Shown here: piece after piece, positions 19,598-25,720 of the stretch | Layout of the letters: every line of letters starts with the position of its first letter | How positions within the stretch are numbered: the first letter of the stretch is position 1 | Assembly (NCBI GenBank): GCA_020850355.1 | Contig: JADZEX010000074.1 | Location: forward strand, 1-42,547 | Length of the DNA stretch: 42,547 bases | Origin: Fimbriimonadaceae bacterium | GTDB taxonomy: Bacteria > Armatimonadota > UBA10988 | Reading direction: 5' to 3' | Position numbers and translations under genes: made by a program | Notes under the pieces: model-generated | Told to the model about the DNA's origin: nothing | What the model saw: the letters and a program-made list of their open reading frames with translations, nothing else | Databases searched by the model: none

Positions 19598-22500
19598 CTA
19601 CGGCCCGAGCAGCCAGTCGTCGAGGTACCAGGTGGTGCCGAAGTGGTTCACGCCGAAGCCGGCGTGGAGGTACGGATCGGGCCCCAGCAGCCCAATCACG
19701 ACCTTCTCGACGGTCAGGTCGACGCCCGGGTAGAGCTTCTCGCAGGCCGCCTTGAGGTCGATCCCGGCGTCGTGCCAGCGGTCGTCGGCGCTGAAGCCTG
19801 GCAGCTCGCTGAGGAAGCGCTGGTTGTCGCCGACCTCCACGCCGCCGTTGAGCTTGACGACATGGTAGACCCCGCGGATCAGCAGGTAGAGGTTGAGCCG
19901 CGCCGCCGCCGGCACGCGGTAGCGGAACTTCAAGTTCGGGCGCTCGGCCAGCCGGAAGGGCGTGTCGAGCATCTGCACCGCGAACTTGCCGCCGCTGGCC
20001 AGGTTGGTGACAGCCAGCGCGCCGCCCCCCTCGCCGCTGCGGTCAAGCTTCAGCGGCGTGCGCGGATCGGCCGGGCGACAGGCGCCAATGCCGCGGCCGA
20101 AGTCGTTCTGTAGGCCGTTGCCGCCAACCTCGCCGGGATTCGCCGTCGCCTGCAGCGCGCCGATGTCCGGCAGCGCCACGCGCGGCGGAAGCTGCTCGTA
20201 CCAGACCTTGACCCGGCTGACCATCACGCCGTTGTTGACCCCGAAGACGGCGACCTTGCCGCTGGTGAGGCTGCCGTCGTCGGGCACGTCGAACAGCTCA
20301 TGGTCGTCGACGCTGGCCTTGATCCGGCCGCCGGCCTTGCGTAGCACCAGGTGGAACCAGTGGCGGTGGAACTTGGTGAGCCCCTCGCCCTGCGGTCCGG
20401 TGTGTTCGAAGCGCGCCTCGGGCTTGGTGTTGACGGCGATCTCGCGGCCTTTGCGGTAGAGCATCGACGCGGTGTTGTTGCGGCCGGCGTAGACCAGCGT
20501 CAGGCCCGACAGGACGTCCTTGCCGTCGCCCCCGAGGGTGATGCAGAGGTCGCTGGGGTGCAGGTAGTAGGGCGGGCCGGGCATGTCCATGCGGATGGCC
20601 AGGTAGGCCTCAACCTGCACGTCGCCAGCGTAGTCCTGCTTGCTCCAAATCAGGGGGTGCAGATCGTTGAAGCCGCCGAAGAACGACCAGCGCGGGTCGC
20701 ACTTCCAGCGGTTGATGGTCTCCCAGGTGCCCTTGGCGACGTACCACTCCCAGGGCGCCTTGACGAAGGTGGTGTCGAACATCTGGCTGGCCCGGGCATC
20801 GACGCGGTCGAGTTCGAGCTGCGAGCTGATGCCGCTGATGGCGGCGTGCAACCCGCTGGCCGCCTGCGGCCGCTGGTCGAGGTGACCGAGCACGCACTCC
20901 TCGTCTTTGTAGACCAGCAGGTAGCGCCCGCGCCGCGCGAAGGTGATCGCCTCGGCGCCCGCCACATCGAACGCCGCGCGTTTGACGGCCTGGCCGCCGA
21001 GTTCGATCTGGCCCAGCAGCCGGGTCGAGTTGGCCTTGTCCTGCGCCAGCACCAGGGCATAGCCGCCACCGTCGGCGTCGTTGGGGTTGGGGGCGGCGCC
21101 GCCCCCGCTGCCGATCACCTCGGCCGGGCCGCCGCCGCCACCGACCGGGTCGAGCGGTGGCGCGCCCGCCGCCGGCGCCCCTGCCGCTGGGGCGGCCGGC
21201 TGGGCTGCGGCCGCCCGTTCGCCGGGCCGCACGCCAGCCAGCACCAGGCGCAGACTGCGGGCTTCCTTGCCGAACAGCGCCGGCTGCACGCTCATCTGGC
21301 TGTCGCCGTGGAACTCGCCGCGGTGCCAGAAGACGCCCCGCCGACTGGCCGACTGGGCGACCTCCCAGTTGCCCGCGGCCGAGGCCCAGTCGGCCATGGT
21401 GTCCTCACGGGTGAACTGCGCGGTGAACTCGATAGGCGCTGGCGGCGGCAGGAAGTCGACCGCGAGCTGGTCGAACTCGACCTTCCGGCTGCCCAACAGG
21501 CCGACCTTGCCGCTGGTCAGCTCGGGCTCGAAAGACTCGAAGACCGGCACGTCACCGACCCGGGCCCGCAGGAAGCCGCGGTGGCACTCCAGGCTGAGCT
21601 GATGCCACAGGTCGCGCCGGAAGCCGACCGCGACCTCCCCGAGCGGGGTCTCGGCGCCGTCGCGCACGCGGACCAGTTGGAGCCGGTTGCGATAGGCCGC
21701 TGGCGCGGAGGAGTCGCCCCAGCGCAACAGCAGATAGTTCTTGGCATCCTGCCAGCACGCCGCCAGGCCAATCCCGCCACCGCTGGGCGCCCGCGCGACG
21801 ACCTTGGCGCGGTAGTCGGCCCAGCCGGTCGAGCCGGTCACGGCCAGCCCGTCGCTGGCGTCGAGTACCCGCAGGCCGGGGTCGAGCAGCCCGCTCCCGG
21901 CACGCTGCTCCTCCCAGGAGCCGCTGACCGCCTGCCAACGGCCGCTGCTGCGGCCGGCGAAGCTGTCGACGACATTCTCACAAGCCTCGACCTCGACATC
22001 GTCGAAGTCGGCGAAGGTGACGCCCTCGGCCCACAGGCCGACCTGCCCCTGGCCGAACAACGGCGAATCGGCCGCCAACGCCGGCAGTCCATCGATGCTG
22101 GCCTGGATGTGATTGTCGACGACCTCGACGGTCAGCCGGTACCACTGGTCATGGGCCCAACCCCCCGGGGCCACGGCGAGCACTTCCAGGCGCCCGTCGC
22201 GCACCGCCACGAGCTGCCGCTCGCCACCGCCGCTGCCCGAGGCCCAGCGCAGCGCGAGGTAGTTCTGCGGGTCCTGCAAGTAGAAGCAGAGCCCCACGGC
22301 GCCCTGTCCCGCCGGCCGCACCGACGCCGCGAAGCGGTAGTTGTCCCAGAACCAGGTCCCGCTGGTGGCCAGCCCCTCGCCCTTGACCACCGCCGCCCGG
22401 AAGGCGAACGGGTTGCTCGACAGCGCCGCCTGCGGGCCGCCCTTCTGGTTGGCGTCGGCCTCGCTGACGCCGGTCGCCACCCAGTTGCCGAGGCGCGGCT

Positions 22501-23014
22501 CCCACTCGCTCTTGGCGTCGGCGGCGCGCATGAAATCGTCGTGGAAGAAGACCGGTTCGGTGGCCTGTGCGGTGAGCTCGGTAATGCTCAGCTTCGGGCT
22601 GCTGACGCCGACTGCCACCCCGCCGGCGGGCAGGCTGTCGTCGTAGGCGGCCAGCCAGACCTCGCCGTTCACCAGCACCCGGATCCGCCAGCGCTCGCGG
22701 CAGAGTGTCACGCGCAGCGGTTGCTCGCTGATCGGCGGCCGTTCGTTGGTCAGGCCCAACAAAACCTCACGGCCGTCGGCGGTGCGCCGCACCAGCCGCA
22801 GTTGCAGGGCGCCGAACTGGGCCGCATAGTGGGCGCCGTCGGCGGCGACATCGAACCGCAGCTCGGCCAGCCCATCGCCCGGCCACTCCGGGTCGGCGCC
22901 GACCACGCAGCGCAGCTTGTACTGCTCGCCGCCGGCGTCCTCAACCGGTTTGACCTCCACCGCCGCCGCGAGGGCCGTCGTCAGCAGAGCCAGCCAGCAG
23001 ACGTGTCGATGCAA
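19598..23014 (-). CDS. Large secreted protein with four lectin-like (concanavalin A-fold) repeats
   Basis: The 1138-residue protein starts at a TTG with a strong ribosome site and a signal peptide (MHRHVCWLALLTTALAAA). Four related units begin at about residues 158, 349, 530 and 746. Each has an opening D/FxxxxW and GNW/GSW/GTW (FMRAADAKSEWEPRLGNW, SFAGRSSGRWQAVSGSW, FTREDTMADWASAAGNW, FVKAPWEWYVAKGTW), then GLxxxxQDxxNYLxLRW and W..L.VE...G.I.A..DG. This resembles the DUF1080/LamG-type concanavalin A-like fold that binds or cleaves glycans. Units 2 and 3 are followed by a low-complexity Ala/Pro/Gly linker (about 601-650). The C-terminal 180 residues look like another beta domain. No catalytic acids can be assigned. 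A short N-terminal unit (30-150) may be a degenerate fifth copy. Confidence 0.82.
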   Translation of the reverse strand: MHRHVCWLALLTTALAAAVEVKPVEDAGGEQYKLRCVVGADPEWPGDGLAELRFDVAADGAHYAAQFGALQLRLVRRTADGREVLLGLTNERPPISEQPLRVTLCRERWRIRVLVNGEVWLAAYDDSLPAGGVAVGVSSPKLSITELTAQATEPVFFHDDFMRAADAKSEWEPRLGNWVATGVSEADANQKGGPQAALSSNPFAFRAAVVKGEGLATSGTWFWDNYRFAASVRPAGQGAVGLCFYLQDPQNYLALRWASGSGGGERQLVAVRDGRLEVLAVAPGGWAHDQWYRLTVEVVDNHIQASIDGLPALAADSPLFGQGQVGLWAEGVTFADFDDVEVEACENVVDSFAGRSSGRWQAVSGSWEEQRAGSGLLDPGLRVLDASDGLAVTGSTGWADYRAKVVARAPSGGGIGLAACWQDAKNYLLLRWGDSSAPAAYRNRLQLVRVRDGAETPLGEVAVGFRRDLWHQLSLECHRGFLRARVGDVPVFESFEPELTSGKVGLLGSRKVEFDQLAVDFLPPPAPIEFTAQFTREDTMADWASAAGNWEVAQSASRRGVFWHRGEFHGDSQMSVQPALFGKEARSLRLVLAGVRPGERAAAAQPAAPAAGAPAAGAPPLDPVGGGGGPAEVIGSGGGAAPNPNDADGGGYALVLAQDKANSTRLLGQIELGGQAVKRAAFDVAGAEAITFARRGRYLLVYKDEECVLGHLDQRPQAASGLHAAISGISSQLELDRVDARASQMFDTTFVKAPWEWYVAKGTWETINRWKCDPRWSFFGGFNDLHPLIWSKQDYAGDVQVEAYLAIRMDMPGPPYYLHPSDLCITLGGDGKDVLSGLTLVYAGRNNTASMLYRKGREIAVNTKPEARFEHTGPQGEGLTKFHRHWFHLVLRKAGGRIKASVDDHELFDVPDDGSLTSGKVAVFGVNNGVMVSRVKVWYEQLPPRVALPDIGALQATANPGEVGGNGLQNDFGRGIGACRPADPRTPLKLDRSGEGGGALAVTNLASGGKFAVQMLDTPFRLAERPNLKFRYRVPAAARLNLYLLIRGVYHVVKLNGGVEVGDNQRFLSELPGFSADDRWHDAGIDLKAACEKLYPGVDLTVEKVVIGLLGPDPYLHAGFGVNHFGTTWYLDDWLLGP

Positions 23015-23019
23015 CCGCG

Positions 23020-23025
23020 TCCTCC
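23020..23025 (-). promoter_or_regulatory. Shine-Dalgarno site that fixes a TTG start
   Basis: GGAGGA on the minus strand (23025-23020) lies five bases before TTG at 23014. There is no in-frame ATG or GTG that would keep the signal peptide, so this site decides the start of the lectin-repeat protein. Confidence 0.7.
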
Positions 23026-23035
23026 GAGGCCTCGG
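23024..23035. repeat. Perfect 12-base palindrome at the start of the lectin-repeat gene
   Basis: CCGAGGCCTCGG reads the same on both strands and directly abuts the ribosome site of the minus-strand gene. It could be an operator or an mRNA hairpin near the start codon; nothing else supports either. Confidence 0.45.
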
Positions 23036-23142
23036 TGGTTCACCATTACCCCAAACGACAGGCGACACCGCCAGGTTCGTTCGCTGACAGATTACCAGAG
23101 GCGTAGCGACCTGGCAGCCGGCCACCCCAGCACGACGGGCTC

Positions 23143-23277
23143 CGACCAAGCGGACGGGTCGAAACTCGTTTGGCTTGCCGGCCGGGACTGGGATGAACCG
23201 CTCATGCCCGGTCTCCAGCATGGCCGGCAAGCTTCGCGGAGGACCATCCGCCTTCGCCGGCGAAGCAACCGGCGGAT
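23143..23277. other. Structured intergenic region with nested inverted repeats
   Basis: The spacer between the two divergent genes (23015-23331) holds no convincing gene. It has a large imperfect hairpin at 23173-23232: outer arms of 11 perfect bases (23173-23183 with 23222-23232), then GG/CC, GAC/GTC, GGG/CCC and ATGA/TCAT pairs to a five-base loop at 23197-23201. A second hairpin has 7-base arms 23246-23252 and 23271-23277, with a 12-base palindrome TTCGCCGGCGAA (23253-23264) between them. A weaker CGACC/GGTCG pair lies at 23143-23161. It may be a structured mRNA leader or a DNA element; I match it to no known riboswitch. Confidence 0.6.
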
Positions 23278-23331
23278 CGCGATCAGCTGGCGCCGGAAGC
23301 GCGGTGGACACAGCAGGAAAGGCGAAGTCGG

Positions 23332-25500
23332 ATGCTTGACCATCGAGGTATTGCAGCCACCTGCACAGTAAGGGTGCAGCAGTACTGCCTGACCTGCTTC
23401 GCGGGATTGCTGGCACTACTGCTCGGTAGCGCTCGTCCACTCTATGGTGCCACTCACATTGTATGCATTGGCACTGCGTTCTTCGCCGACCCGGCTATCC
23501 CTGCGCGGCAGTATGCCGGCCAAGATGCTGAGGTGTTGGCGGCGCTATGGAGATTGGGGTACCCGCAGTCCAAGGCCCCGGTTGTTGTAGCGAATGGTAC
23601 CATGGCGTCAGCGCGAACACCAAGGCGATTGACAATACTCCGAGATCTCACCGCGGCGCGTGAGGACATGAGTCACGGCGACACATTGATAGTGTACTGG
23701 TCCGGACTAGCATGCGAAAGCAATGGCGACAGCTACCTGCTTGCAGAAGATAGCGACGTGGGCAGGCTCGCCTCTACTGCTGTCACGAGCGACGACTTGA
23801 CCCGGTCTCTGCGGGGCTTTCGTGGAGCCCAGATCCTGTTGATGTTAGATATCCATTCAGTTGACACCCGTGACGCAAGCAAGGCACCCGTGCTTGCTGC
23901 CTCAACTGTCGCTGCTGTTACAAGTGCGCTGTCTAACGCAATCGCGGAAACAAACATAGTAGCAAGCATTGTATTCGCATGTGCGACGGGAGAACGAACC
24001 CAGGATGACGCCGCAAGGGGATTGGGACTCTTCTGCAGCGGGCTGGTTGACATGCTTGCTGATGCATCTTCTGCAAGCACACAGGAAGTGTCGGCTAGCG
24101 AGATTGTCAGGCGATGGCGCGGAGCCGCGGATCGCTGGAGAACGATCGACCGGGAGAGTGTGCCAACGCCCATCCTCTGCGCGGCCTCTCCTGGCGAGGT
24201 GCATATTGCCATGCCACTTGTACTTGATCGAGCTAGACGGCATGATGTGACGTTGGTCCGGCAGGTTGGATCGCTCTCAGTATCGGCAAACTGCGACAGT
24301 ATGGCTGTTGTGATCAACAACTATCAGATTGGTACTGTGCACGCGCCATGGCCAGTCCGGCTTGTTGTTCCTATTGGCGCGATGTCCAGCACTGGAAGCC
24401 ACGCTGGCCGGACGCCTGCGACGGAGCGTATTGAAGTGGCATTTGGTGAGCAAGAGTCAGTTCATCTCAATCTGGTTAGCTTCCCGGCTCTGAAGATCAG
24501 GTTGGCCCAACCGGACACGCTAGTCGAGTTGGATGGAGAGGTTATCGGCTCTGGTGGGCCTGACTGTCCAATCGATGTTGCGTCGATCGAGCCTGGGACA
24601 CACTCGATTCGTGGGTTCAAACCTGGTCTACTGTCCTCTGCTAGAGAGTTTCTAGTTCAACCCGGTGTGGACGCGGTTGAGCTGCTGTCGCTCGATGCTC
24701 CTGGCGCGGTCGTCGTTGGCGTTGATAAGGGGCCGGCTACGGTTTTGATTGATGGTGTTAGCGTTGGTCGTACGGGAATGGGCGTTGGTGTCATGGTCGG
24801 TTCTCTTGAGCCAGGCGAGCGCCGAGTGGATATTTCAGGTCCTGGTATTGCAGTGTCGTTCTTGGTTTCGGTCCGGTCTGGTGGCTGTGAAGTCGTCTCA
24901 GTCGCGGGAAGCGGTTCTGACGTCCGGGTCACGCTTGGCGCCGATGTTCCTGGCTCGGTGCGACATATTGGTGAGCACATCGTTGGGGATGGAGAGACTA
25001 TTGATAGTATTGCACGTGGTTACTGCATGACGGTGTCTGAGTTGGTTCGACTCAATGCGTGGCTGGAAGCTGGCAGAGCCGTTGTGGGGACAGCCCTTTC
25101 AGTCTACTCGCTGGCGAATCTTGTCTCTCCTGGCATCGTTCGTAAGGATGGTCTGGCTGTCGTTCAGCCGGCCGGCGAGGATGCTTTGGGCTCGGGTCCT
25201 GTTGGTTCTTCGGCCAAGAAGGTGGCTAGTGTCAGGCCTGAGGTTCGTCGGGCCTTCAATGTTAAGGGCGCGGTTGGCCGGCTCGGTGTTGTAATTCACG
25301 ACGGCGCGTTTATCTTTCGGCAATGTGACACGAAGTCCTCTGTGCTGTATGTTTGTCCAGGTGGTACGCGATTGTGCCTGCGCTCGCAGTTGGGTGTGTT
25401 TTACAGTGTGCTGATGATTGATGGGTCTGTGGGCTTTATACACAGCGAGACTGTCAGACTAACGAATACTGACTTGGTACAGAAGGGGACTCGTCGGTAG
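23332..25500 (+). CDS. Exported pseudo-caspase (C14-like) with PEGA repeats, LysM and SH3 domains
   Basis: The 722-residue protein has a signal peptide (hydrophobic about 18-38, ending PLYGA). A caspase/metacaspase-type domain (about 40-270) follows, recognised from HIVCIGTAFF, YAGQDAEVLAALW, GDTLIVYWSG, YLLAEDSD, the LLMLD strand (169-173), and FACATGERTQDDAARGLGLFCSGLVDML. The catalytic SGHG is SGLA (Leu126), and the LDxCHSG motif is LDIHSV (172-177), so both dyad residues are missing. After this come three PEGA-like beta units (about 312-380, 384-446, 458-512), a LysM domain (547-592, HIVGDGETIDSIARGY) and a bacterial SH3-like domain (652-711). LysM and SH3 suggest peptidoglycan binding. 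Base composition is much lower in G+C than its neighbours. The ATG at 23332 is used; a GTG at 23371 would give a more standard signal peptide. Confidence 0.8.
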   Translation: MLDHRGIAATCTVRVQQYCLTCFAGLLALLLGSARPLYGATHIVCIGTAFFADPAIPARQYAGQDAEVLAALWRLGYPQSKAPVVVANGTMASARTPRRLTILRDLTAAREDMSHGDTLIVYWSGLACESNGDSYLLAEDSDVGRLASTAVTSDDLTRSLRGFRGAQILLMLDIHSVDTRDASKAPVLAASTVAAVTSALSNAIAETNIVASIVFACATGERTQDDAARGLGLFCSGLVDMLADASSASTQEVSASEIVRRWRGAADRWRTIDRESVPTPILCAASPGEVHIAMPLVLDRARRHDVTLVRQVGSLSVSANCDSMAVVINNYQIGTVHAPWPVRLVVPIGAMSSTGSHAGRTPATERIEVAFGEQESVHLNLVSFPALKIRLAQPDTLVELDGEVIGSGGPDCPIDVASIEPGTHSIRGFKPGLLSSAREFLVQPGVDAVELLSLDAPGAVVVGVDKGPATVLIDGVSVGRTGMGVGVMVGSLEPGERRVDISGPGIAVSFLVSVRSGGCEVVSVAGSGSDVRVTLGADVPGSVRHIGEHIVGDGETIDSIARGYCMTVSELVRLNAWLEAGRAVVGTALSVYSLANLVSPGIVRKDGLAVVQPAGEDALGSGPVGSSAKKVASVRPEVRRAFNVKGAVGRLGVVIHDGAFIFRQCDTKSSVLYVCPGGTRLCLRSQLGVFYSVLMIDGSVGFIHSETVRLTNTDLVQKGTRR

Positions 25501-25720
25501 GCACACGGTGTGGCACGGGTGTGTTAGGCTGGAATGTGGCAGCTTCGGTATTGCCTGAAGCGTGTTTGTGTGTGTGTCTCGGTGGTTGTCATCCAGACTC
25601 CGAAAGGGTTTGTTGTCTGTCGCTGGTCGGTGGCGGTGTGCTGTCCATCGCGTCAGTTCGGGCTTGACGTGATAGCAGTCCTCGCAGTCAGCGCCGGGCC
25701 GCGAGAGCTGAGGCGCGGCG
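25501..25720. other. Intergenic stretch without a recognisable gene, G/T-skewed
   Basis: The 288-base gap before leuC keeps the lower G+C of the pseudo-caspase gene for about 170 bases. It is rich in G and T on the plus strand, including GTGTTTGTGTGTGTGTCTC near 25561-25580. High G+C returns around 25680. Short open frames here show no protein-like pattern. Confidence 0.5.

Follow-up and report, generated by a model that had tools for sequence, protein, structure and literature searches.

A gene in the window (the whole 42,547-nucleotide stretch of DNA that was analysed) encodes a caspase-fold protein in which both catalytic residues are replaced, and in which the degenerate caspase domain is joined to a C-terminal half homologous to part of a cell-wall peptidase. 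The reading that we favour, and to which we give about an even chance, is that two families of surface enzymes were combined in this lineage into a chimeric pseudo-orthocaspase, which would be exported, directed to the wall and able to bind but not to cut.

Gene architecture and the caspase-fold domain

The reading frame opens with ATG and is intact, as had been noted in a preliminary description of this DNA; it runs for 722 codons, giving a product of 722 amino acids (Table 1). That description placed the exported caspase-fold protein at 23332-24135; these limits hold for the caspase part but not for the gene as a whole, which ends at 25500. The product comprises, in order, a signal-like N-terminus, a caspase fold of the C14 orthocaspase type, PEGA, a weak LysM and SH3, so that the proposed fusion to PEGA, LysM and SH3 units is borne out, with PEGA above its cut-off, LysM below it and SH3 recognized through aligned relatives. 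The same N-terminal layout, with a signal-like segment leading into the first caspase strand, is seen in the C14 paralogues, and the protein is predicted to be exported. The scan that returned the weak terminator hairpin found four such patterns against 1.8 expected by chance. On the opposite strand, an open reading frame at 19598-23440 is divergently transcribed and encodes a large protein with weak lectin-like matches and weak matches to 3-keto-disaccharide hydrolase; as this frame overlaps the pseudo-caspase gene, its true start probably lies inside the listed frame.

Table 1. Features of the pseudo-orthocaspase gene, in window coordinates
Feature	Position	Strand	Basis
Pseudo-orthocaspase chimera gene (C14-like, PEGA, LysM, SH3)	23332..25500	+	Open frame, homologies, lowest GC in sampled genome
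Signal-peptide-like N-terminus, ~residues 1-40	23332..23451	+	Read from sequence by eye; adjoins first caspase strand
Caspase-fold domain, residues ~41-280, catalytically degenerate	23452..24171	+	BLAST to C14 paralogues, NCBIfam, structure model, fold matches
D65, aligned with S1-pocket aspartate (putative equivalent of Asp95 of TbMC2)	23524..23526	+	Retained; invariant in alignment; equivalence taken from motif
L126-A127 at catalytic His-Gly (SGLA for SGHG)	23707..23712	+	Alignment with C14 paralogues and homologues
D173, aligned with S1-pocket aspartate (putative equivalent of Asp211 of TbMC2)	23848..23850	+	Retained; invariant in alignment; equivalence taken from DxC motif
I174-H175 at catalytic Ala-Cys (LDIH for LDAC)	23851..23856	+	Alignment with C14 paralogues and homologues
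PEGA domain, residues 387-428	24490..24615	+	Pfam PEGA, over cut-off, E 9e-7
Degenerate LysM, residues 549-575	24976..25056	+	Pfam 15.1 bits, below cut-off 20.9
Bacterial SH3, residues 640-717	25249..25482	+	Homologous to SH3 of own-genome NlpC/P60 peptidase
Possible intrinsic terminator hairpin	25542..25561	+	Pattern scan; ~40 bases 3' of stop codon; weak

The assignment of a caspase (C14) fold, also made in the preliminary description, is supported from several directions. The best BLAST matches are C14 proteins of a same-family genome (E down to 4e-19), and C14 proteins of the same genome are found at E 3e-16. The Pfam C14 model (PF00656) does not report the domain in the 722-residue protein, and the NCBIfam model caspase_w_EACC1 (EACC1-associated caspase) covers residues 43-262 at E 6.6e-7, under its own cut-off; a profile built from the caspase-domain family recovers metacaspases of known structure (E 4e-13) and MALT1. 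An AlphaFold2 model of residues 30-300, built with an input alignment of 13 C14 homologues from viral contigs, reached a pLDDT of 79.8 and a pTM of 0.83. Foldseek returned MALT1, GSU0716 and metacaspases as the best matches to this model, and VIA-align gave Z-scores of 22.2 with Arabidopsis metacaspase 4 and 22.1 with GSU0716. The predictor had been given an alignment made up of C14 proteins, so its model counts as support for the caspase fold and not as independent proof. Taking homology and predicted fold together, we assign the domain to the Peptidase C14/caspase-fold family. As to the p10 domain of metacaspases, residues C-terminal of the caspase domain match PEGA in Pfam. The protein matched none of the PADLOC defence models.

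Loss of the catalytic dyad and retention of the pocket aspartates

Leucine (L126) and histidine (H175) occupy the positions of the catalytic histidine and cysteine, so the His-Cys dyad of an active orthocaspase is absent. The codons concerned are CTA GCA for L126-A127 and ATC CAT for I174-H175. Each motif differs by more than one base change, and a change from cysteine to histidine by itself takes two, so a single sequencing error does not explain the loss. Among 55 homologues from the same phylum that have both motifs, a set containing a few near-duplicate rows, the dyad is kept in 51, and the other four read HF, HT, QA and HA; the Leu-His pair occurs in the window protein alone among the aligned homologues. 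The replacement of both residues thus stands as first described. Five other C14 proteins of the same genome score over the cut-off, all with the dyad intact. Elsewhere in the phylum, two C14-like relatives from another family (L091 and L092, in genomes G166 and G150) have Gln-Ala and His-Thr at these positions, and dyad loss therefore recurs in the phylum.

It was also considered whether the protein could still be catalytically active through a displaced dyad, such as one formed by His175, which sits at the cysteine position, and Cys128, which lies two residues past the histidine position. The alignment argues against this, as no shifted dyad occurs in any of the 55 homologues, including the four with non-standard residues, and the swapped C128/H175 arrangement has no counterpart among them. 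We consider a displaced dyad highly improbable.

The two aspartates that align with those of the S1 pocket are retained. Judged by motif, they are the counterparts of TbMC2 residues that hold basic substrate residues, and published pseudo-orthocaspases keep the acidic pocket aspartates (PMC6426788). The caspase domain as a whole is less well preserved: of 20 near-invariant caspase columns the window protein keeps only 9, and it has proline at the position of the conserved Gln278; the homologue with the next lowest count, which also lacks the cysteine, keeps 70% of these columns. The S1 pocket itself may therefore be altered. With a p20-like domain, a substituted dyad and retained S1 aspartates, the protein is, as judged from the alignment, a pseudo-orthocaspase, and its caspase domain should be without peptidase activity.

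Origin of the C-terminal half and history of the gene

The PEGA domain is probably flanked on both sides by further PEGA-like repeats, recognized by eye; a model of this region from the single sequence had a pLDDT of 41.7 and was discarded. Beyond it, the LysM and the linker align with a LysM-SH3-NlpC/P60 protein encoded by another genome of the family, and residues ~611-717 match the linker and SH3 of its counterpart in the window protein's own genome (G000:C1, L037), to which the SH3 domain is 54% identical (E 2e-21). Pfam does not report an SH3 domain in the window protein itself; seven of nine aligned SH3 relatives match Pfam SH3_3, and SH3_4 matches also occur among the relatives. A tree of SH3 domains places that of the window protein with the copies from its own genome and from the same family (support 86/87). 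Both comparison proteins contain an NlpC/P60 domain, assigned by Pfam in the own-genome protein and by sequence in the other. The window protein stops just past LTNTDLVQ, where the linker to the NlpC domain starts in the NlpC/P60 protein, and no NlpC/P60 remnant was found 3' of the stop codon; the protein is thus not itself an NlpC/P60 peptidase. On this homology, we trace the C-terminal half to the lineage's cell-wall peptidase of LysM-SH3-NlpC/P60 type, of which it represents the LysM, linker and SH3. With the caspase dyad replaced and the NlpC/P60 domain missing, neither parental catalytic activity is expected. This derivation was not part of the preliminary description, and nor were the unusual composition and the rapid evolution of the caspase part described below.

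The caspase-domain branch is the longest in the 55-row tree (2.86 against a median of 0.57), its position within the main group of 37 rows being unsure, whereas the SH3 domain has an unremarkable branch of 0.57, that of the NlpC/P60 copy being 0.96; the acceleration is therefore specific to the caspase part. No full-length orthologue was found in 251 genomes of the phylum, three of the same family included, and a scan of genome contigs returned only a LysM match, so long-term maintenance of the gene is unproven. The GC content at third positions (GC3) is 0.56, compared with 0.84-0.91 in the five other C14 genes of the genome and ~0.9 in neighbouring genes, and within the 325 kb sampled from the genome the four 1.5-kb windows of lowest GC all fall in this gene. 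The first half of the gene is strand-symmetric at third positions, and the second half is rich in T and G on the coding strand, a bias that runs past the stop codon to ~25650; the low-GC stretch as a whole spans 23332-25650.

These features leave two live rivals for the history of the gene. It could be a decaying duplicate of little or no function, in which catalysis and codon bias are gone but no stop has yet arisen. The long caspase branch, degenerate motifs, weak LysM, low GC3 and missing orthologues all fit such a course, and bacterial mutation is described as AT-biased in one study (PMC2936535), from which unselected genes should drop in GC. However, drift of GC3 from 0.9 to 0.56 should create stops, and the chance of 722 stop-free codons at the gene's base composition is ~1e-12. 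The SH3 domain, with its ordinary branch, also differs from the own-genome NlpC/P60 copy mostly at third positions (62, 73 and 35% identity at codon positions 1, 2 and 3), a pattern expected under selection on the protein, although it may partly reflect constraint on the NlpC/P60 copy. We regard decay as unlikely.

The alternative, which we rate as rather unlikely but slightly better than decay, is recent horizontal gain from an unsampled relative of lower GC, where both the fusion and the replacement of the dyad would go back further and perhaps be conserved. It would account for a composition that departs from that of the genome over the whole gene and slightly beyond, and the gene neighbourhood of leuCD is not preserved in relatives, which also makes synteny there uninformative. 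Yet the SH3 domain is closest to the NlpC/P60 protein of its own genome and groups with its family, albeit with the modest support given above; the halves differ at third positions, for which one donor offers no simple explanation; and there is no plasmid or phage match and no tRNA within the window. A mobile element was rejected on these last grounds, together with the lack of any Rfam hit and the metabolic neighbours.

Possible role and comparison with known systems

Under the favoured chimera, an exported orthocaspase with PEGA domains would have been joined to the LysM-linker-SH3 half of the peptidase, and the exported product would reside in or near peptidoglycan. Its caspase-fold domain could bind basic-residue peptides or partner proteins without cleaving them, and act as a decoy or a scaffold towards wall proteins or the active orthocaspases that the genome encodes. 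The earlier suggestion, that the domain has been retained for binding or sensing, is plausible, although none of the genomes covered has an orthologue that would show long-term retention. More specifically, we tentatively suggest, as a possibility that we hold with considerable doubt, that a protein from two enzyme families, having lost both catalytic functions, is kept as a wall-anchored binder; it might, for instance, be a decoy through which exported orthocaspases are buffered or positioned. If so, the union of a dead caspase domain with the wall-binding half of a peptidoglycan peptidase would point to structural or regulatory functions beyond the cytoplasm, alongside five intact-dyad relatives in the same genome.

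As the preliminary description noted, pseudo-caspases are known from both eukaryotes and bacteria. A survey of bacterial orthocaspases counted 858 pseudo-orthocaspases among 9,994, nine tenths of them in Alphaproteobacteria and Cyanobacteria (PMC6426788). Most descriptions of such proteins come from phototrophs, and it is in that context that they have been discussed. A second survey found Planctomycetes to be one of the groups in which the dyad is poorly conserved (64%), and also reported metacaspases joined to FGE-sulfatase or to a domain that putatively binds peptidoglycan (PMC3501461). Like the published pseudo-orthocaspases, the window protein has a p20-like fold with both dyad residues substituted and the pocket aspartates kept. 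The dyads named there are YS, YA, FS, QC, HA, YY, YN, YG and HG, whereas here the pair is Leu-His; those proteins, mainly cyanobacterial or alphaproteobacterial, have no extra domains or TPR or trypsin-like ones (PMC6426788), unlike the PEGA, LysM and wall-peptidase SH3 found here.

Closer to hand, the C14-PEGA-FGE-sulfatase proteins encoded in this genome and its family share the exported C14 domain, often followed by PEGA, but their His-Cys pair is intact and they bear FGE-sulfatase or other domains, with LysM or SH3 in none of those scanned. One same-family genome (G002) has a large orthocaspase expansion, with 20 C14-type matches (loci L044-L057, L059, L061, L063 and L073), several joined to FGE-sulfatase and PEGA domains. 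The LysM-SH3-NlpC/P60 peptidase shares LysM, linker and SH3 with the window protein, from which its NlpC/P60 domain is absent. In eukaryotes, c-FLIP(L) and TbMC4 are inactive relatives of caspases that work together with active ones (summarised in PMC6426788); for the window protein, pairing with an active paralogue would be an analogy only. We found no description in the open-access literature of a C14 domain with PEGA, LysM and SH3, or of a Leu-His pair. Dead caspases are thus an already known class, to which this protein appears to add a new combination of domains.
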